From a virus: 25,203 nucleotides of DNA. Positions 2,893 through 25,203 of the stretch are shown in pieces. The notes beneath the pieces are model-generated. The model was not told the origin of the DNA and ran no database searches. It was given only the letters and a program-made list of their open reading frames with translations. Both the position numbers and the translations under genes were made by a program. The stretch lies in the IMG/VR virus record IMGVR_UViG_3300010939_000085, positions 1-25,203 of that record; one strand, given 5' to 3'. Each line of letters opens with the position of its first letter. Position 1 is the first letter of the stretch.

Positions 2893-3244
2893 TTTTCCAC
2901 TCCATATAAAGAATAGGCTTTTCATCCTCTCTAAACTTATCAATCTCTGCCTTGATTCCTTTGCTCTTATTCCACCCTTCCATCTTAACAACAATCAAAC
3001 CAACCGCTGCTTCCATCAGTGGCATGTCAGCAGGTAGCCAGATCGTATGGTCCAAGGGATCAAGTTTCCCATACACGGCTATTGGATGTGTATGTGCAAT
3101 AGGACAATAAACTCTCACCCCACATTTAATCAGGCTTGCTGTTGCCTTAGCAGCTTCTTCAAACGCTGCTTCAATTCCTTCACTGTATTTACTATACGGA
3201 GTGGCTAAATACCAAAAAGGTTCCCGCGTAATTTTAGTCTCCAT
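2885..3244 (-). CDS. DUF1937-like, nucleoside deoxyribosyltransferase-fold protein
   Basis: The 119-residue protein starts with FWYLATPYSKY (about residues 10-20), continues with a helix and RVYCPIAHTHPI, and has LPADMPLMEAAVGLIVVKMEGWNKSKGI near the end. These are the features of the DUF1937 family (PF09152), which is related in fold to nucleoside 2-deoxyribosyltransferases. Its enzymatic role is not established. It sits directly after a second protein of the same fold, so both may act on nucleotides or salvage intermediates. A 14-codon frame (3234-3278) bridges the previous stop and this start and may couple translation; the start itself lacks a strong ribosome binding site. Confidence 0.8.
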   Translation of the reverse strand: METKITREPFWYLATPYSKYSEGIEAAFEEAAKATASLIKCGVRVYCPIAHTHPIAVYGKLDPLDHTIWLPADMPLMEAAVGLIVVKMEGWNKSKGIKAEIDKFREDEKPILYMEWKNV

Positions 3245-14540: not shown

Positions 14541-14696
14541 TTATATATCCATGGCACATTGATTGGTGCAAGCAGTACAACAATTACATAATTGTTCATC
14601 TTCTATATCTACACATCCGTCCATTTCATATGAGTAAGGACATTTGTGCCAATCTTCTGCTTCTCTTTCCTCACACCTACTACATTTTTCTTTCAT
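14541..14696 (-). CDS. Cysteine-rich small protein (51 residues), likely metal-binding
   Basis: ATG at 14696 overlaps the ATP-grasp stop (ATGA). The peptide contains eight or nine cysteines in compact groups (KCSRCEER, HKCPYS, then LCNCCTACTNQC), suggesting one or two zinc sites. The 'CNCC..C' end resembles small phage proteins I recall only in outline. It directly follows the ATP-grasp ligase in translation order and may be a product, a carrier or simply a neighbour of the amide-ligase cassette. Confidence 0.65.
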   Translation of the reverse strand: MKEKCSRCEEREAEDWHKCPYSYEMDGCVDIEDEQLCNCCTACTNQCAMDI

Positions 14697-15451
14697 CCTA
14701 TCCTCCTCATAGCTTCACAATAACGTTCTAGTGTTGTACCTTCAAGGCCCGGTGCTGTGTTCACCTCAAGGACATAACACATGTCTCTTCCCTTATTATA
14801 TATAATGTCTACTGCGCCAAAATCAAGAGAACATCTCTCTGTTGTCTCTAATGCCAGCTCTCTTAATCTATCTAAATAAGGAACTCTCTCAAGTCCTTCC
14901 CTCATATAGATAAATCCGTTATCATGGCTTCTAATTTGCCAATTTATTTCTTCATCGGGCACATCAACTCTTCGTGCCTTCCTCTGCACATCAATAGCCT
15001 CTCCATTAAAAACATGCACTCTATATTCATCTTTCTTTTTTATATATTTAACATATAAATGAGCGTCAGCCATTTCTTCTATTGAGCGAGTTATCACTAT
15101 TCCAACGCCACTATGTCCTGACAATACTGTGCGGCATACAACGCTCCCATCTTTAAGCCATTTCTCTGCTTCTGTCCTATCTTGTGCCCAATCTGGAAGC
15201 CATTCCCTTTGGCCTAATAAGGAGAAGAAAAACAATTTATTTGAAGCAATGTTTACATCATCGGGGTGGTTTAATAATCTACATTTAAAGACTTGTTTAT
15301 TATCTATATAACTACATCCCCAATTTACCACTATCTTCTTTTTATCTCCCACGAATTTACTGTTATTAATTTTGATCTTTCTTACAGGGACAGCTAAAGC
15401 CAGTCTATTCACTGTCCTACTACCTTCTCTATATGGGTATATATAATTCAT
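14693..15451 (-). CDS. ATP-grasp ligase (RimK-like)
   Basis: The 252-residue protein has a glycine-rich ATP loop (VLSGHSGVGIVIT, about residues 109-121), a YVKYIKKKDEYRVHVF strand pair (about 133-148) and the metal/ATP site LDFGAVDII plus VLEVNTAPGLEGTT (about 211-242). These proteins join a carboxylate to an amine with ATP through an acyl-phosphate. In phage cassettes with amidoligases and amidotransferases they are thought to add amino acids or amines to peptides or other carboxylates. It overlaps the amidoligase stop (ATGA), so it is co-translated with it. The substrate is not readable. Confidence 0.85.
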   Translation of the reverse strand: MNYIYPYREGSRTVNRLALAVPVRKIKINNSKFVGDKKKIVVNWGCSYIDNKQVFKCRLLNHPDDVNIASNKLFFFSLLGQREWLPDWAQDRTEAEKWLKDGSVVCRTVLSGHSGVGIVITRSIEEMADAHLYVKYIKKKDEYRVHVFNGEAIDVQRKARRVDVPDEEINWQIRSHDNGFIYMREGLERVPYLDRLRELALETTERCSLDFGAVDIIYNKGRDMCYVLEVNTAPGLEGTTLERYCEAMRRIG

Positions 15452-16575
15452 TCTCTAGGTTCCCCATCTGGGGGAATGTAGTAAACCGCTCTCCTCTGCA
15501 GCTCTCGCATCCTTTCCACTTCTTCCATTCTTTGTGCATTCAACACTGGAGGTTGCCTCTGTATTCTCCTTCTCGGAGCAAGATCTTCTGGTTGGGGAGC
15601 TTCTTCAGCTACATCAGCAGGACGTTCTGCTTCATCAATAGGAGCTTCTCTTATAGGCTCATCGAAATAATTGGGAAGATTTCTATTCAAATTTATTCCA
15701 CCAGGAGCAACATTAACCCTAACAAGCTCACCATCTTCTCTTTGTATTTGTCGTTTTCTTTTTGGAACATCTTTAATCTTTTTAAGGGGTGTATAGGCTA
15801 GAGTTTGTATTCTCCTAACTCCTTCCATTATTTTTTCGTTCATATTTTTATTCTTCAGCATATCAAAGTGCGGACCAAGAATTTTCTTCGCCCATTCGAT
15901 TTCCCCTTTAGCTGAACAATCAGATATGAACTCGCTTGCATCCTTCACTTCTAATGCTTTGCTTTTTATTCTTAAAAGAAGAGAAATATAGTCTTTTATT
16001 AATTGTGAAGTCTTTGGGGTTCGTAAAGACCTAAACTCCAAGCTCCCATAATATCGAATTGCTGCAACATTAATAGTACCGTACTTAAACGTATTCCTAT
16101 TCGTAACGATATTAAATATCCCACTATTTTTCTTATCATCAATTAAACTATAAACTAACCATTCTGCATCTCTTGCCCTTAAACAAAATAAATTACCTTC
16201 TCTATCTTCGCCGCACCACGATAAAATTAAGTCCTCTAATATCAAATAAAGTGTTATATAATTAAATACTTGTTCTATCTCCATATGTTGACAATTTATG
16301 TGGATATGGACACCGCACCTATCACTTGGCGTTATTTTAGTATGTTTTTTTAACATTTTATATAAAGAATCCAATTTTTTATATGCCCCTTCTTCGCTTA
16401 GCGGTCCGTTTAATATAAATTCCACTCCATGTCCTCTTAACGATCCATCCATGTCATTAGACCATCCACTACACTTATGGTCAAAGAGTCCTTCCCCCTC
16501 CATTTCTATTTCCAACCCTATTTCATTTTCTGGAGGCCATATGTGTAAACCAAAAACATCTTTTACTTTAGGCAT
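15448..16575 (-). CDS. Amidoligase (glutamine-synthetase-fold carboxylate-amine ligase)
   Basis: The 375-residue protein has the amidoligase motifs: EIGLEIEMEGEG (residues 18-29, with Glu 22, 24 and 26 as metal ligands), GHGVEF (about 48-53), CGVHIHIN (87-94) and SLEFRSLRTPK. Family members use ATP to form amide bonds between a carboxylate and an amine. The last about 100 residues form an extra Arg/Pro/Glu-rich tail (RRRIQRQPP region), probably disordered, that may bind nucleic acid or partner proteins; such a tail is unusual. Starts within the 204-residue gene's end (13-base overlap). Confidence 0.85.
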   Translation of the reverse strand: MPKVKDVFGLHIWPPENEIGLEIEMEGEGLFDHKCSGWSNDMDGSLRGHGVEFILNGPLSEEGAYKKLDSLYKMLKKHTKITPSDRCGVHIHINCQHMEIEQVFNYITLYLILEDLILSWCGEDREGNLFCLRARDAEWLVYSLIDDKKNSGIFNIVTNRNTFKYGTINVAAIRYYGSLEFRSLRTPKTSQLIKDYISLLLRIKSKALEVKDASEFISDCSAKGEIEWAKKILGPHFDMLKNKNMNEKIMEGVRRIQTLAYTPLKKIKDVPKRKRQIQREDGELVRVNVAPGGINLNRNLPNYFDEPIREAPIDEAERPADVAEEAPQPEDLAPRRRIQRQPPVLNAQRMEEVERMRELQRRAVYYIPPDGEPRE

Positions 16576-17177
16576 ATGGCTTTCTCCAACAACTGATTGA
16601 GATATAGGTAGTCATCGAATAACATAACTTCGTCCTTAAATAGCTTTCCAACAGGGCTTCTTAATTGTATGAATAGCAACTTTTTTCCTTCTATAGCAAA
16701 GTTTTTGTTAAATGCCTGTGAAGCAGCGTCTTTAGATTTAATCATCTTAATTATTTCTTCAACTTTCGGAAATTTCCCACAAACGCTTTCCTTAAAATAC
16801 ACAGACTTCATTATTTTTTCTTTTATATTACGCTGATTATATTTTTCAGGTATCATTTTCAAATTTTCTGCTGTTAGACCGATCCTCCATTGTCTAGCTG
16901 GGGTACGATAAGCTTTTATAGCTACTTTTTGTTTACCAAATTCTCTAAAGTTTATGAACCCTAGTGGAATAGGATTCATATCAACCCTCCCACTACTAAG
17001 ACCAACTTTACTTATTCCTTTGACCTTTTCTATAAGACGATAATGGAGGATATTTCTACGGACAGTGCGATTGTATTTTATATCTTCAACTACCACTGGC
17101 ATACCATCAATACGGATTATGGACCCAATTAAATATAAACGAGCGTGCTCTATATTAAAAAAATCCTTATTTTTCAT
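16563..17177 (-). CDS. Unknown protein in the amidoligase cassette (204 residues)
   Basis: The protein has LYLIGSIIRIDGMPVVVEDI (about residues 14-33), IPLGFINF, and a basic RTPARQWRIGLTAENLK region in the middle. I have seen similar 'GSIIR...PV.VEDI...PLGF.N' proteins beside phage amidoligases, but no function is established. It lies between the two amidoligases with overlapping ends on both sides (ATGA toward amidoligase 2), so it is probably a partner or substrate of the cassette. No nucleotide-binding motif is visible. Confidence 0.6.
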   Translation of the reverse strand: MKNKDFFNIEHARLYLIGSIIRIDGMPVVVEDIKYNRTVRRNILHYRLIEKVKGISKVGLSSGRVDMNPIPLGFINFREFGKQKVAIKAYRTPARQWRIGLTAENLKMIPEKYNQRNIKEKIMKSVYFKESVCGKFPKVEEIIKMIKSKDAASQAFNKNFAIEGKKLLFIQLRSPVGKLFKDEVMLFDDYLYLNQLLEKAICLK

Positions 17178-18013
17178 CGCACTAATTTCCTGTGTGTTAC
17201 AAACGCATATACATCGTACGAACCAATGGCGTAAGGGACATTTTGAATAAAATCTATTGCCTGAGCTATATTTTTATAGTTTATAATGCTCGATGCAATA
17301 TCATGATACTCTTTAAAGTAATCTACATCTTTATTTACAAATAAATCAAATGCTAATTTTGTTTGAGAAAATACAAATTCCATATACTTTTTGTTTTCAA
17401 TCCAGAAATTAGACAACACTCTGTATTCTAAACCATATGGTTTTGGTCTAAAACTACCGGCAATACCGTATAGCCCCTTTCTTATAACATCTTTATCTAA
17501 TATTACACTTGGAATCCCTAGAAAATAATCAAGTTGTTTTGTCATTTGACAACACGAAAGGAAGTGGGAGCTTTCCATAGGGTCTTCGTCCTCGGTCCAA
17601 CCTATATGAATATGCCCCCCTGCGGTTCTCATATATGACATTAGTATAGGAGTAGGTTTTTGACTTTCGGCATATGCATCAAAATCCGCTTCACAGCCAA
17701 GCGCTAAAGCTTCTGCGGGCTGTTCCTTTATATGGAGACGATCAAAGGTTGCTGATGCTGTATAGTTAAAAGAATATTTGTCTGGCACCATATCTCTTAA
17801 AGAAGAGAGGACACTTTCTACATTATGAACAAATTCTTTTTCTTCTTTGGCCGGATTGATATTAAACTCAAGGGCCATTCCATCCACTTGTACTGCCCCA
17901 TCTTTTACAGGGAAAGGATGTAATTTATTTCCTGGAACTATCCCATGAGCAGAATGAAATTTTCCATCCTTCTTAACAAATAATTCAGGATCAGCACCGA
18001 TTAAGATGTCCAT
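17174..18013 (-). CDS. phiEco32-like amidoligase (COOH-NH2 ligase type 2)
   Basis: The 279-residue protein has the phage type-2 signature: IGADPELFV (residues 5-13), VPGNKLHPFPV followed by GAVQVDGMALEFNI (about 39-52), GGHIHIGW (about 131-138) and GLEYRVLSNFW. Conserved acidic and histidine residues would hold Mg-ATP. This family (PF14395) is named after phage phiEco32 and is predicted to make an amide bond on a peptide or small molecule. It is distinct from the amidoligase at 15448-16575, so the cassette has two ligases. It overlaps the class II amidotransferase by one base. Confidence 0.9.
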   Translation of the reverse strand: MDILIGADPELFVKKDGKFHSAHGIVPGNKLHPFPVKDGAVQVDGMALEFNINPAKEEKEFVHNVESVLSSLRDMVPDKYSFNYTASATFDRLHIKEQPAEALALGCEADFDAYAESQKPTPILMSYMRTAGGHIHIGWTEDEDPMESSHFLSCCQMTKQLDYFLGIPSVILDKDVIRKGLYGIAGSFRPKPYGLEYRVLSNFWIENKKYMEFVFSQTKLAFDLFVNKDVDYFKEYHDIASSIINYKNIAQAIDFIQNVPYAIGSYDVYAFVTHRKLVR

Positions 18014-19053
18014 TATATTCCCTTCAAGAGTGAATCAATTCTAATTTTTTCTAATTGATCGGAAGTTGTGCAATTCCCACATGCAGCGAGATCATCGTCT
18101 ATAACTACAGCCGATCTCCAAATTAATTGAGTGGAACAAAGCGCACAATATTGGTATTTTTCATCAAATTTCTTCTTTGTCATTCCATCTATTTCTAGAA
18201 TTGATGAGGCATTCTCTGGCCACTCATCTTCTTCATTTTGCATTTCACGTGCGTCTAAAAATGTTCCTTCTTTGTTTTTTTTATACCATTTATCTAAATA
18301 CCCCTCATTAGGAGCAGTTTTTTTAAAAGGTTCATATTTTTTAAATGGTTCAAGCATTCGTCCGTTGATATGTATAATTTTTTTCTTTTCTTCATTATAT
18401 ATAAAAGAAAAAAGAACATTATTTTCAGGGTAATACACTTTATCCTTTTTTAGTTTTACTTTAAGCCGTTCGCACACTTTTCTTATCATCCAACCTTCAG
18501 ATGATATAATTAGTAGTCTATTTCCTTTTGTTGTAGCAAAAAATAAAGGTCTCTCACCGTTCGAGATAATATTTAATGTCTCATTGGCCTTATCATAATA
18601 GATTAAAGAAGCCGCTCCGTCTAAGTTTTCCCATGTCCAGTCAATACCTTTTTCATTAATGACATATGTTATTGATTGACTATCGGTAGAAAAATTATTT
18701 TTTTCTTTTGATTTTAAAAAAGCTTTTAATGTACCATTATGTACCAATGTTATATTGTTATAAACAATTGGATGTGCATTTTCTTTTGTCACCTTCCCTA
18801 TTGTAGCCGACCTATTATGCCCTATATAACAGTATGACTCCTTCACACTCATTGCAATATTTTCTCTATATTCTTTGCTCTTAATTAATTCTAAAGGCCA
18901 TACAGTGTCCTTAACGATAGAAGATGACTCTTTTCCTATGGATGCTACGCCTGTTGAATCTTTTCCTCTTAGTATCCCAACAGAAAGAAGAAGTTCAAGC
19001 ATAAATAACGTCTTTTCACTAGGAGCTCCCATTATTGCAATTAGTCCGCACAT
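18013..19053 (-). CDS. Class II glutamine amidotransferase with C-terminal zinc ribbon
   Basis: The protein starts with MCGLIAIMG, where Cys2 is exposed after Met removal and acts as nucleophile. It continues with RGKDSTGVASIG (about 29-40) and IGHNRSATIGKV, then AHPIVYNNITLVHNGTL, the glutamine pocket and oxyanion loop of Ntn-type amidotransferases such as GlmS and PurF. It releases ammonia from glutamine. The C-terminus has CALCSTQ followed by CGNCTT, a zinc ribbon not typical of the family. No synthase domain is fused, so ammonia would be handed to a partner, plausibly an amidoligase in the same cassette. Confidence 0.9.
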   Translation of the reverse strand: MCGLIAIMGAPSEKTLFMLELLLSVGILRGKDSTGVASIGKESSSIVKDTVWPLELIKSKEYRENIAMSVKESYCYIGHNRSATIGKVTKENAHPIVYNNITLVHNGTLKAFLKSKEKNNFSTDSQSITYVINEKGIDWTWENLDGAASLIYYDKANETLNIISNGERPLFFATTKGNRLLIISSEGWMIRKVCERLKVKLKKDKVYYPENNVLFSFIYNEEKKKIIHINGRMLEPFKKYEPFKKTAPNEGYLDKWYKKNKEGTFLDAREMQNEEDEWPENASSILEIDGMTKKKFDEKYQYCALCSTQLIWRSAVVIDDDLAACGNCTTSDQLEKIRIDSLLKGI

Positions 19054-19712
19054 ATTATACCCTTTTCAACGTAACCAGATGGAAATAAATATTTATAAAT
19101 ATAAACAAAATAGTGCATTTTCAAGTCAGGAACACCAACAAATTCAGGATGTGGTTGGAAACACAGCACTTTATGTTTCGGGTAGAATACAATTTCCGTA
19201 TCAAAATCGTTTAATTTTCTAACGTGATATTGTATCACATTGCCATTTTTTAAAACAGATGATCTAAATTTACTTTCATCTGCAACACCAATAATAATGC
19301 CACCTTCTGCTACTATCATCATTTGATGATGTGTCGATGTGGCTCTAAAGCTTTTATTTGTTATAACATCCAGTACTTCATGTGTTGTCCCATTGGAGTG
19401 CCCACAAACATCTTGCCATAGTTCTCCTCCGCACATAACATTCAAGAATTGACCCCCTCTACATATTCCAACCATAGGAATTTGTTTCCCTAATCCTAGC
19501 GCGAAAACTACTGCGTCTTTTTTGTCTCTTAATAAACTGTGGGTAGTTTTTGGATGTTTCTTTTGTCCGTATAAGTATGGAGATACGTCTACTCCACCTG
19601 TGAACTGAATTAAGTCGGCTTCATCTATTGTTCTCACTATTTCCCAGCCTTCGCCGTGGAACATTCTTTCGTACAACGGACTAGAAAAAGAAATAAACAC
19701 CTTAGCCTTCAT
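19041..19712 (-). CDS. Class I glutamine amidotransferase / gamma-glutamyl hydrolase-like (C26)
   Basis: The 223-residue protein has the class I triad: GICRGGQFLNVMCGG with nucleophile Cys 84, and FQPHPEF near the C-terminus providing His and Glu. FTGGVDVSPYLYG (about residues 37-49) is the usual glycine-rich loop. Such enzymes hydrolyse gamma-glutamyl bonds or supply ammonia. It may cleave gamma-glutamyl intermediates made by the ligases, the opposite reaction to amide formation. It overlaps the class II amidotransferase by 13 bases. Confidence 0.9.
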   Translation of the reverse strand: MKAKVFISFSSPLYERMFHGEGWEIVRTIDEADLIQFTGGVDVSPYLYGQKKHPKTTHSLLRDKKDAVVFALGLGKQIPMVGICRGGQFLNVMCGGELWQDVCGHSNGTTHEVLDVITNKSFRATSTHHQMMIVAEGGIIIGVADESKFRSSVLKNGNVIQYHVRKLNDFDTEIVFYPKHKVLCFQPHPEFVGVPDLKMHYFVYIYKYLFPSGYVEKGIICAD

Positions 19713-22532: not shown

Positions 22533-22810
22533 CTTGCCCGCCTTACTCGCGCTACCATATCTTTGTGACCCGCTTTGGCTTGTTTCTGAGCTGTGTAACG
22601 TTGCTGTTCACCATCAAGAAGCCCATCAAATCTAGAACGGGGGTAGAATGAAAAGGTGAGGGTTGGACATTTGACGGTCTTTCACGCCACTAATTCAGGG
22701 AAGCTCCAACTACCTACTGATTCAGTTTCCTTACTTATGCCCCACCCCTCGGACATGTATTTTGGCTTTCCATAAAGGCTCCTTGGAAAAGCCTTGCTAC
22801 TCACCATCAT
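22529..22810 (-). pseudogene. Coding-like frame interrupted by one TGA
   Basis: One frame runs from ATG 22810 to a TGA at 22682-22684, then continues in the same frame to a stop at 22529-22531 that overlaps the next gene's start (ATGA). The first part reads MMVSSKAFPRSLYGKPK and onward to SFPELVA; the second part has FDGLLDGEQQRYTAQKQAKA and a basic RVRRAR end. The same frame is open upstream to 22911 without a start. The second part alone has no start codon, although an extra A in the AAA at the boundary would create a GTG start. It may be a gene with a nonsense mutation, a readthrough ORF, or chance openness in a structured region. Confidence 0.35.
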
Positions 22811-22907
22811 GCCCAAACTGAAGTGGATGTGCAACGGACCAGACAGCCTAACAACACGGAGAGAGTGTTCGGTTTCCCTCTCATCCGATACCCCGTAAGG
22901 GTTGGAC
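22659..22907. repeat. Ten-base direct repeat AGGGTTGGAC
   Basis: The ten-mer AGGGTTGGAC occurs at 22659-22668 and at 22898-22907. Copy one's GTTGGA pairs with TCCAAC at 22705-22710. The two copies bracket a 250-base stretch with several stems (22764-22771 with 22785-22793; 22823-22831 with 22916-22924). It could be a protein site or an RNA element; too short to be sure. Confidence 0.3.
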
Positions 22908-22924
22908 GGGCATTACACATCCAC
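22823..22924. other. 9-bp stem-loop next to the inverted repeat
   Basis: GTGGATGTG (22823-22831) is the perfect complement of CACATCCAC (22916-22924). The closed 84-base loop contains two smaller stems (for example ACCC with GGGT around a CGTAA loop). Its right arm overlaps the left copy of the large inverted repeat, so the two pairings exclude each other and could act as a switch in the 3' untranslated region of the GC-rich gene. Confidence 0.35.
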
Positions 22925-23628
22925 ATCTGTGAGCTGACAAGCTAGAGGGAGGGGAAAGAAGTCTTAAGCGACGGCCTTCTCGGCCCGTTGCTCTTCATCC
23001 GACACGATTTCACTGCCGGTGACGCCGGGAACGACCGGTTCGGGTTCCAAGAGCGCAATCTGCCTCTTGAGCACTGTCGCCATATTCCGAGCGAGATCGA
23101 CTGCCTTAACGGCATTGTTGTCTTTGGGGATCATGTTCTCTCGGTCGAAATTGGCGATGGCCCTCGTGATGGGGACCACTACACCTTCGGCCTCGAAAAT
23201 GATCTTTTCCTTCTCCGGCGCAAAGTCAAAAAAGGGCTTTTCAAGAGCCTTCTTGAGCAGTTCGGGGTCGAATTCCTTGCTCTTATCGACGACCAAAGCG
23301 CTGCTCTCTATCTTTACGGGAGCGTAAGCCTTGAGCCAAAGCAAGTAGGCCGATTTCCGAACGTAGTTCTTTCCGGTGGTCTCGAGCGCCACCAGGAACT
23401 TCTGAAGGAACGCGATCTGACCGTGTTCGTAGAGGTGCGAGATTGCATAGTTGGCGATCTCCACGGCCAAATCTCGTGAAGCGGTTGTCGCCTTCGCCCA
23501 CGCTTCAAGCATCTGATCGAAATTGCGGGGTTTTGCGACGGCCTTGTTTGTGTTCTCTGTCATACTGTAAGCCTTTCTCGTCAAAAAGACGAAATTAACC
23601 TATCAGCTCACAGAAATAGATATGTGGA
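22920..23628. repeat. Inverted repeat enclosing the GC-rich gene
   Basis: Left copy TCCACATCTGTGAGCTGA (22920-22937). The right copy is TCAGCTCACAG (23603-23613) followed, after eight bases, by ATGTGGA (23622-23628). Read from outside inward both sides give TCCACAT then CTGTGAGCTGA, 18 pairs in total with an eight-base bulge on one side. Exactly one gene lies between the copies. This may be a terminal repeat of a mobile cassette or a 5'-3' UTR pairing in the mRNA. No flanking target duplication is evident to me. Confidence 0.55.
22964..23563 (-). CDS. Unknown protein in a GC-rich island (199 residues)
   Basis: An ATG at 23563 is chosen; the frame is open to a TTG at 23584 that falls in a small hairpin (23578-23592). 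AAAGG lies eight bases before the ATG. The protein is helical and mixed-charge (FDQMLEAWAKATTASRDLA, HGQIAFLQKFLVALETTGK), with an acidic, Val/Pro-rich end. I do not recognise a family. Its codons end mostly in G or C, unlike the AT-rich neighbours, and the inverted repeat at 22920-23628 frames it. This suggests recent arrival or strong expression selection. A phage DNA-binding or host-takeover protein is possible but unsupported. Confidence 0.75.
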   Translation of the reverse strand: MTENTNKAVAKPRNFDQMLEAWAKATTASRDLAVEIANYAISHLYEHGQIAFLQKFLVALETTGKNYVRKSAYLLWLKAYAPVKIESSALVVDKSKEFDPELLKKALEKPFFDFAPEKEKIIFEAEGVVVPITRAIANFDRENMIPKDNNAVKAVDLARNMATVLKRQIALLEPEPVVPGVTGSEIVSDEEQRAEKAVA

Positions 23629-23704
23629 GACTGCACCTAAACTTATCGCCGATAGAGAAGTGGACGGCGCAGAAACCTAACCCTAAACTCTAGGACTAAG
23701 AGAC
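23564..23704. promoter_or_regulatory. Leader / divergent region between the GC-rich gene and the large RNA
   Basis: This 141-base stretch includes the right copy of the inverted repeat, a TCGTC-AAAAA-GACGA hairpin (23578-23592) just upstream of the GC-rich gene's ATG, and a purine/pyrimidine-rich part. GACTAA (23694-23699) is complementary to TTAGTC (23738-23743) beyond it. I cannot place a sigma-70 promoter with confidence, but promoters for the leftward genes and perhaps the RNA should lie here or nearby. Confidence 0.35.
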
Positions 23705-24237
23705 CACGGCTTACTATCCCAACCCGTGCGATTACATTTAGTCGAACCCTTGGCCTTTCAGCATATTTGCCAAAGGGCAGTGATGCCCAATATGCTTCCA
23801 GGAAAGGCAATCATAGCGTCAATTACGCGTTAGGCACGCTATTAGGATTTTATAACAATCAGCTAATGTTTGCTCGATTGTCACCTATGCAATCCGATAT
23901 GGCTACCCTATCGCTAGGATAGTCTAAAGCACACTTAGCTGTCATTTATTCTAGGCATTACCGCCGGTTACTTAGGACGGTACTGAATGTGCTTAGGACA
24001 ATGCTAACGATACACTGTCACCTTGCGGCTTGGCACGATGTCGCATATGCCCCACTGGGGCGAGGGTCTGCCTCGCGGTAACAGGTTATGCCACACTGAA
24101 GCAAATCGCGCTTTACTATGCGGCGTTCGGGCTTTCCTTCCCCTAACGCCCAAAGCGTTCATGCTCGCTTGCCGCAAGGCTTGACGTTCTCTTTTGCCAA
24201 GCCTCATCATAAGCCTCATCGGTTGGGATACACCGTG
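23705..24237 (+). ncRNA. Candidate large ornate non-coding RNA (533 nt)
   Basis: No convincing coding frame crosses this region. It is closed by long-range helices: 23705-23709 with 24233-24237 and 23715-23724 with 24221-24230 (10 bp perfect). Inside are 23753-23759 with 23802-23808 (7 bp), 23760-23767 with 23789-23796 (8 bp), 23775-23779 with 23784-23788 around a GTGA tetraloop, 23814-23819 with 23836-23841, 23908-23912 with 23918-23922, 23927-23933 with 23988-23994, 23959-23963 with 23978-23982, 24021-24029 with 24171-24179 (9 bp), 24049-24053 with 24057-24061, 24061-24065 with 24071-24075, 24122-24127 with 24145-24150 and 24177-24183 with 24198-24204. The GNRA-type loop on the plus strand favours that strand. 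Size and multibranched layout recall phage ROOL and GOLLD RNAs, but I cannot show homology. Confidence 0.55.
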
Positions 24238-24348
24238 AAATATGTCTACCCATAAATGGCTATGAATAAATTTATTTCAAGGCATTATATTTTCCTTTAA
24301 TATCAATAGGATAGGCTTAGAATAGGCTTTTATTCCTATTTTCATGTT
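24238..24348. other. AT-rich spacer with short hairpins
   Basis: The stretch holds an AATAAATTTATT palindrome near 24264-24275 and an AATAGG/CCTATT hairpin (24320-24325 with 24334-24339) followed by T-rich sequence, a possible weak terminator of the preceding RNA. It may also contain the promoter of the rightward gene at 24428; no clear -35/-10 pair is visible. No gene seen. Confidence 0.3.
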
Positions 24349-24421
24349 TTCCCTTGTATCCTGCCCTTTCCTGATTATGTGGAAAGCACGGGTTGGATTG
24401 TCTAACCTGAATACAAGGGAA
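24349..24421 (+). promoter_or_regulatory. Three-helix leader that buries the ribosome binding site
   Basis: An 11-bp perfect stem (24349-24359 with 24411-24421) encloses two smaller hairpins, 24366-24371 with 24381-24386 (6 bp) and 24391-24394 with 24404-24407. The 3' arm of the long stem contains AAGGGA, the ribosome binding site of the gene starting at 24428. A three-way junction sequestering the ribosome site is a typical riboswitch or RNA-thermometer layout. The ligand or signal is unknown and no known class is recognised. Confidence 0.45.
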
Positions 24422-24427
24422 TATACA

Positions 24428-24910
24428 ATGGAAGCAAATACATACCCAAGTGAGCTTATCTATCCTTCATGGGTAGAGGAAGCAGCTGAGAGGCTTAAAA
24501 GGATTAAGGCAATCCACATTGGCGGATTGTTGGTAAGGGAAGCTTCCACAAGCGGGAGGCTAGGTCACATGGGGCATTACATACCCATTTGGATTGATCC
24601 GCCCTTTCCACCCTTCCCTGATGGTCCAATCCCTCTCACAAGGGAAGGGGAGGCTATTGAAGCATGGTTGTCCGTTCACAAGCCAGTCCCACTCGTTAGA
24701 CTGAAGAAGCAATGGCGCAAGCTCTCCGTCCCCTTCCCTGTCTTAGTGCCAATTGCCAAGGGTGCCCAAGAGCACGAAGGGGCCGAGGATAGGCAGGAGA
24801 GGTACAAGGCAACCCTCAAGACCGCCCATGGCGCCTCAGGCGGACCAAGGCGTACATGGCTAGATAAGCTCGTCATCCCAAGGCATGGGGAGGATAGGGA
24901 CAAATGGTAA
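24428..24910 (+). CDS. Unknown rightward early-type gene (160 residues)
   Basis: ATG at 24428 follows AAGGGA about eight bases upstream; a longer frame starts at 24344 but would run through the structured leader. The protein is basic with many prolines: an N-terminal helix (EEAAERLKRIKAI), a YIPIWIDPPFPPFPDG segment, and a Lys/Arg-rich C-terminal half. No family is recognised. It is the only clear rightward gene at this end, separated from the leftward operon by the RNA domain, so it may belong to an early or host-takeover unit. Confidence 0.6.
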   Translation: MEANTYPSELIYPSWVEEAAERLKRIKAIHIGGLLVREASTSGRLGHMGHYIPIWIDPPFPPFPDGPIPLTREGEAIEAWLSVHKPVPLVRLKKQWRKLSVPFPVLVPIAKGAQEHEGAEDRQERYKATLKTAHGASGGPRRTWLDKLVIPRHGEDRDKW

Positions 24911-24940
24911 GGAGACAGCCTGCCCCTTCCACTCATCCCC

Positions 24941-24959
24941 ATCAGGGCGTCAGCCTGAT
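24941..24959 (+). terminator. Weak terminator-like hairpin after the rightward gene
   Basis: ATCAGG (24941-24946) pairs with CCTGAT (24954-24959) around a seven-base loop, followed by a short T-rich stretch. It follows the rightward gene by 30 bases. The stem is short, so termination is only possible. Confidence 0.35.
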
Positions 24960-24989
24960 TATTCATACAGCTGTTTGATTAATAAATAC

Positions 24990-25009
24990 ATATGAATGAT
25001 CTTTCATAT
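24990..25009. other. Hairpin in the gap before the last frame
   Basis: ATATGAA (24990-24996) and TTCATAT (25003-25009) form a perfect 7-bp stem with a six-base loop. The gap 24911-25127 otherwise shows no gene. It could be an operator or part of an untranslated leader. Confidence 0.25.
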
Positions 25010-25127
25010 CAAATTGAACACCTTTCTTGCATATCTAGGAGGAGATTCCTATTCCTGTCTGTAAGTCTTTGAAAATAAATGACTTTGGAGGGTACTGCCC
25101 CCATCGACAATATGTAGGAGATACTAA

Positions 25128-25203
25128 ATGAGCCCTCCCATATATGCCAATTCAATATTAATGTTTAATTATTATATTAATGTTTCTTTTTTTCTTAACA
25201 AAA
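25128..25203 (+). CDS. Start of a possible rightward gene, cut by the window end
   Basis: ATG at 25128 follows AGGAG seven bases upstream, a good ribosome binding site, and the frame stays open to the end of the window (25 codons). The visible residues (MSPPIYANSILMFNYY and onward) are hydrophobic and aromatic, perhaps a membrane segment. Too little is visible to identify it. The T-rich composition also allows a chance frame. Confidence 0.35.
   Translation, partial: MSPPIYANSILMFNYYINVSFFLNK

Follow-up and report, generated by a model that had tools for sequence, protein, structure and literature searches.

A structured segment of early mRNA with a probable control or processing role and a new small protein family in a Zobellviridae-like phage

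We conclude that the folded region at positions 23705 to 24237 of a 25,203-base virus record (IMGVR_UViG_3300010939_000085, the whole stretch of DNA analyzed and here called the window) is a structured segment of early mRNA, probably for control or processing, that comes with a small protein of a new family. The window covers part of the genome of a Zobellviridae-like podophage. We are confident of the anatomy of the region, namely, a leftward early operon in which gene 1 is followed by a folded spacer and then by gene 2, an order shared by relatives. A sequence-only reading of the same region had seen a stand-alone, large, ornate RNA of the ROOL/GOLLD kind, lying on the plus strand and without a gene. 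The unusual RNA-level structure in a phage genome was borne out, while the stand-alone, gene-free RNA on the plus strand was not. A false candidate of the ROOL/GOLLD class is removed in this way, and what is defined instead is an unnamed family of early proteins to which a structured RNA segment is attached.

The replication genes of the window are Zobellviridae-like, with a primase/helicase 47 to 50% identical to those of Salinivibrio phage CW02, Vibrio phages, PA11, and CVT22. The phage family to which they point is widespread and poorly studied. A second record, L002 (IMGVR_UViG_3300032104_000024), overlaps the window at 24014 to 25203 with 99.8% identity and runs on into late genes with the terminase. 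Because this overlap continues into the late genes, the folded region can be placed in the middle of the genome, at the divergence of the early (minus-strand) and late (plus-strand) operons. The equivalent place in CW02, T2S1, Vibrio 1.264.O, PA11, and CVT22 is gene-free over about 0.6 to 1.1 kb. On the late side, the first reading frame encodes 160 aa without a family (24428 to 24910, plus strand), and the late operon with the terminase continues in L002. On the early side, a putative leader (5′ UTR) at 24208 to 24290 on the minus strand, with a TATAAT at 24284 to 24289, was assigned by reading the sequence. No good −35 element was found for this TATAAT, which the consensus scan did not report, and scanning for sigma-70 sites gave no convincing early promoter. 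Gene 2 of the early operon (22964 to 23563, minus strand) belongs to phrog_1448, of unknown function, and has a 33% identical homologue behind the equivalent spacer in G051. Scans with two neighboring proteins (160 aa and 198 aa) found no relatives apart from the overlapping record.

Gene 1 lies at 24004 to 24207 on the minus strand and takes up 204 of the 533 nt in which no convincing gene had been seen. It encodes a 67-aa arginine-rich protein (MRLGKRERQALRQ..PRGRPSPQWG..) that begins MRLGKRERQALR, and a Shine-Dalgarno-like GAGG can be read at 24214 to 24217. The gene was traced via a short conserved stretch in the divergence regions of relatives found by their terminases; on the minus strand, this stretch translates as MRLGKRERxALR. 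Nine diverged homologues occupy the same genomic position (L135, L132, L138, L140, G051, L210, G006, G007, and L222). The window protein matched that of L135 with a BLASTP E value of 2e-14, and G006 (E value of 4e-11) and G007 (6.6e-7) were recovered by a profile built without them. Ribosome-binding sites precede gene 1 in the homologues, e.g., AGGAGG in L210.

Over the first 12 codons in the nine homologues, the codon differences in the gene 1 frame were 209 synonymous to 84 nonsynonymous, compared to 14:288 and 10:287 in the other two forward frames of the same stretch. Amino acid identity to the window was 75 of 88, while random placement of the same nucleotide changes gave 29.8 (standard deviation [sd], 3.2). 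Because this synonymous bias shows protein coding, the gene-free RNA identity is refuted for the gene 1 part; the sequence-only reading had itself named such a bias as the sign that would speak against its RNA. Judged by its homologues and codon differences, gene 1 is a conserved protein-coding gene. Searches with its protein found no match in Pfam or PHROG, no relative in the named phage collection, and nothing meaningful in a PDB profile search, while a scan of genome contigs gave nine pattern hits, none of them confirmed. By these comparisons, the family (RLGKRER) is so far undescribed. AlphaFold2 predicted a confident helix at residues 5 to 26 and little other order (mean pLDDT of 65, with block values of 89 and 82 over residues 1 to 20 and 51 to 62 for the remainder).

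Positions 23705 to 24237 fold far better than dinucleotide shuffles, with z scores of −6.6 (plus strand) and −6.0 (minus strand), values that are inflated since the boundaries had been picked in the sequence-only reading. Positions 23690 to 24250 gave −5.5 (plus) and −4.5 (minus), and unselected 400-nt windows in the folded region gave −3.5 to −4.2. As a control, 88 windows of the same length from the same record had a mean z of −0.52 (sd, 0.96). The spacer alone (23585 to 24003) reached −3.1 on the early strand and −2.8 on the opposite strand; in the window itself, the plus strand folds as well as the minus strand. The helices described from the sequence exist: a 10-bp perfect helix closes the region (23715 to 23724 with 24221 to 24230, the latter arm just upstream of the gene 1 ribosome-binding site on the minus strand), and two 9-bp (24021/24179 and 24027/24203), one 8-bp, and several 7-bp perfect helices were confirmed. 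Both arms of the 24021/24179 helix fall within gene 1. At least one perfect helix of at least 10 bp occurred in 8% of shuffles, and one spanning more than 400 nt occurred in 1.7%. Single helices, the 10-bp closing helix included, are thus weaker evidence than the overall folding energy. Through an 11-bp perfect complement (23719 to 23729 with 24386 to 24396; CCAACCCGTGC/GCACGGGTTGG), the left arm of the closing helix could instead pair outside the studied region, which may reflect a switch or chance.

We compared ten homologous units of 600 nt each, from ATG − 50 to ATG + 550 of gene 1. On the early strand, the z score was −3.8 in the window and −4.1, −3.6, −5.8, −5.5, −4.6, −3.7, −4.5, and −5.7 in eight further units; the tenth, that of L222, scored −4.3 (fixed sd). 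Control windows from the same records had a mean z of −1.8 (n = 27; sd, 1.4). Four of the units (L210, G006, G007, and L222) had been picked by protein homology alone and are unbiased for folding. The opposite strand was clearly weaker than the early strand in 8 of the 10 units, the exceptions being the window and L138. Across the homologues, structure peaks in the 200 nt directly behind the gene 1 stop codon (mean z of −3.5), and in several of them, the gene 1 coding region is structured as well (gene z of −5.8 in L135). On the early strand, each spacer had on average 1.0 hairpins with a GNRA, GNRNA, or UNCG loop and a stem of at least 5 bp; the opposite strand had 0.1, and shuffles gave about 0.2. 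The earlier claim of a structure density beyond that of a spacer is upheld by the 88-window control and by its recurrence in nine distant relatives; the plus strand assumed there has to give way, as gene order and homologues point to the minus strand. We conclude that the early-strand RNA has been selected to be structured.

The RNA element proper is the hairpin-rich spacer at 23564 to 24003 (minus strand; about 440 nt without a gene), as indicated by folding z scores, the position of the peak, and loop enrichment. The order of small gene, spacer, and early gene repeats in all homologues whose contig extends far enough. BLAST between the loci found gene 1 starts and gene 2 conserved and spacers not, with the exception of one 41-nt match between L140 and L210. 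The spacers hold many long, nearly perfect stems of about 8 to 13 bp that differ between homologues. None of the stems described from the window could be traced between relatives, the spacers of the available homologues being too diverged to align, and no hairpin loop common to at least 3 of the 10 homologues was found in leader or spacer. What is conserved is the high structuredness of the early strand and not one particular fold. The comparison suggests that the region is a cis-acting, fast-evolving structured segment of early mRNA, where the mechanism is the part that we infer.

Few sequence likenesses were left among the spacers. An octamer, AATGCCTA, occurs in 5 of the 10 otherwise unalignable spacers (window, G006, G051, L132, and L135), compared to a maximum of 4 in 40 shuffled sets, and the L140 spacer has it minus the last base; this recurrence is the sole outcome of the shared-loop and k-mer tests and is a weak one. 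The window also has a hairpin, GGCG-GUAA-UGCC, with a GNRA loop (23954 to 23965, minus strand), whose counterpart in G051 is AGCG-GUAA-CGCU; in both, UAGA..UGACARCUA then follows. The likeness may be suggestive for these two loci. The motif was not found in the other loci, and aside from it, the window and G051 spacers gave no informative nucleotide alignment. The region had no homologue in nucleotide searches of phages and plasmids, and a 15-nt exact arm pattern had 23 matches in IMG/VR, none with the 3′ partner. A blastn search of the region against 50 relatives gave as its best match (83% over 30 nt, G007) the start of gene 1 and otherwise nothing convincing.

ROOL and GOLLD are recognized by covariance models, often lie near tRNA islands in phages (an association that is frequent and hence not strictly defining), and form homo-oligomeric RNA cages (PMC12286853). 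The studied region resembles ROOL, GOLLD, and OLE in being several hundred nucleotides long and very structured, and ROOL and GOLLD are likewise phage borne (PMC12286853). In contrast to them, it has no model match, lies in a window without a tRNA, holds a protein gene, and has a fold that is not conserved among relatives. The covariance models, a check which the sequence-only reading had proposed for its own RNA, gave no match for ROOL, GOLLD, or OLE in 22540 to 25203 up to an E value of 10, and none in the homologous loci up to an E value of 1 (10 for G051). Rfam at the gathering threshold gave no matches in the window; up to an E value of 10, the only match in the studied region was a chance lncRNA at 7.6, and in the homologous loci only tRNAs and implausible matches appeared. 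No tRNA was found in the window or in the stretch of L002 examined, and single tRNAs were found in only two homologous loci. On the covariance-model and tRNA evidence, the region is not a ROOL/GOLLD-type RNA.

As a working model, the promoter-proximal part of the early operon would be transcribed leftward through gene 1, the folded, fast-evolving spacer of about 440 nt, and gene 2. The spacer would act in cis within the nascent early RNA, and the gene 1 protein, with its N-terminal arginine-rich helix, and/or the RNA itself would act on the host RNA polymerase or Nus factors. Transcription could thereby pass the spacer and continue down the long early operon, which would make this an N/nut-like or put-like module. 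Taken as a whole, an early operon with gene 1 and a cis-acting antitermination spacer is our best explanation, and we offer it tentatively; the antitermination mechanism, taken by itself, is doubtful. Among relatives, arrays of two to three perfect rrn-type boxA copies, confined to the early strand, lie where the early operon starts in CW02 (L029; 41700, 41940, and 42166), T2S1 (L030; 33435, 33648, and 33852), and PA11 (L033; 43587 and 43897). These arrays likely mean Nus-dependent antitermination in Zobellviridae phages. Of the gene 1 homologues, that of L222 is flanked by two perfect rrn-type boxA copies (GGTGTTCTTTAACC), and L140 has one perfect copy. A boxA with at least 9 of 10 matches was not found in the window nor in most of the gene 1 homologues.

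The resemblance to lambda N/nut lies in a small arginine-rich protein encoded by the first gene of the early operon, with an N-terminal helix and little other predicted order, and in the boxA copies that lie beside gene 1 in L222 and within the early regions of several relatives. However, the relation to N is not significant: a 14-residue resemblance to the arginine-rich segment of N had a BLASTP E value of 0.15, and profile comparison with N was negative (hhalign probability of 1%). The window also has no boxA or defined boxB, and its spacer greatly exceeds a nut site in length and in structure. HK022 put, which mediates protein-independent antitermination, consists of two short stem-loops. 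Like put, the window element is structured RNA, sits close to the beginning of an early operon, and would act in cis; unlike put, it spans several hundred nucleotides, and the two have no motif in common. Because an arginine-rich helix that is conserved should have an RNA target that is conserved too, the absence of a common hairpin loop counts against antitermination, as does the equal folding of the plus strand in the window. The broadest form of the proposal, which we consider rather unlikely, is a new early-transcription control module in Zobellviridae-like phages that acts on the host RNA polymerase, composed of an undescribed arginine-rich family (RLGKRER) and a co-transcribed RNA of hundreds of nucleotides that changes nearly all of its sequence while remaining structured.

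We rate the main rival, RNase III-type processing or message stability, about equal to antitermination in likelihood. Under this possible but far from assured reading, the spacer holds RNase III-type sites or 3′-end protectors that part the gene 1 message from the rest, and gene 1 is a small host-takeover protein that is not involved. Long, near-perfect stems that differ in each homologue, a location that separates genes 1 and 2 of the same operon, and sequence turnover with structure kept, which fits sites that need a duplex and not a sequence, are all in keeping with it. However, each spacer has several stems where one would suffice, the coding region of gene 1 is structured too in several homologues (the −5.8 of L135), and the boxA copies in relatives go unexplained. 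The early region of T7 has single hairpin sites between most genes; the window is similar in having hairpins between early genes on one polycistronic transcript and differs in that several long hairpins cluster behind one gene. Lambdoid phages, in turn, have terminators behind the first early gene, and the location directly behind gene 1 and the stable hairpins would suit a spacer that is mainly a transcription attenuator or terminator, restraining the distal early genes without a dedicated antiterminator. We hold this to be very improbable, given that a scan found no minus-strand hairpin followed by a U tract.

Two further readings take the fold out of the early mRNA altogether. A stand-alone functional large noncoding RNA on one or the other strand, next to gene 1 or antisense to it, would account for the strong fold on both window strands and for the long-range 10-bp helix that closes the region. 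It is made improbable by the protein gene within the 533 nt, by the missing ROOL, GOLLD, and OLE matches and the lack of any plausible non-tRNA match up to an E value of 1 in the homologous loci, by helices that are untraceable in homologues, and by the less structured opposite strand in most of them. The fold could also be a by-product of palindromes that serve at the DNA level as a replication origin or protein-binding sites. While the early/late control region would be a fitting place for these and the window and L138 fold about as well on one strand as on the other, the early strand outfolds the opposite strand in 8 of the 10 homologues and the RNA-typical tetraloops are nearly confined to one strand, and we give this reading, too, a small chance.

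If gene 1 and the spacer, as a pair, control early transcription, they would be a compact switch made of RNA and protein in which structure, and not sequence, guides the evolution of the RNA half. The case is also a caution that a lookalike of an ornate noncoding RNA can be a protein gene plus a spacer on the opposite strand.

Some observations concern the neighborhood of the region. Perfect sigma-54-type promoter sequences lie upstream of the gene 1 ATG in L138 (about 96 nt; TGGCACGGTCCTTGCA) and L140 (about 105 nt; TGGCACGCCTCTTGCA); the pattern had 20 matches in 5.0 Mb of loci with both strands counted, and it would be unusual for phage early genes to be under sigma-54 control. About 400 nt between early genes at 22560 to 22960 of the window hold no convincing gene, and their folding is not unusual. 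Farther along the window, 14693 to 19712 (minus strand) hold a cluster of amidoligase, COOH-NH2 ligase, glutamine amidotransferase, and RimK-like ATP-grasp genes that resembles those of phiEco32-type phages and other Zobellviridae. In L002, the frame of the terminase large subunit, from about position 3085, is 825 aa long compared to 534 aa in relatives, and the insertion, directly behind the YIFDEA motif, is intein-like.
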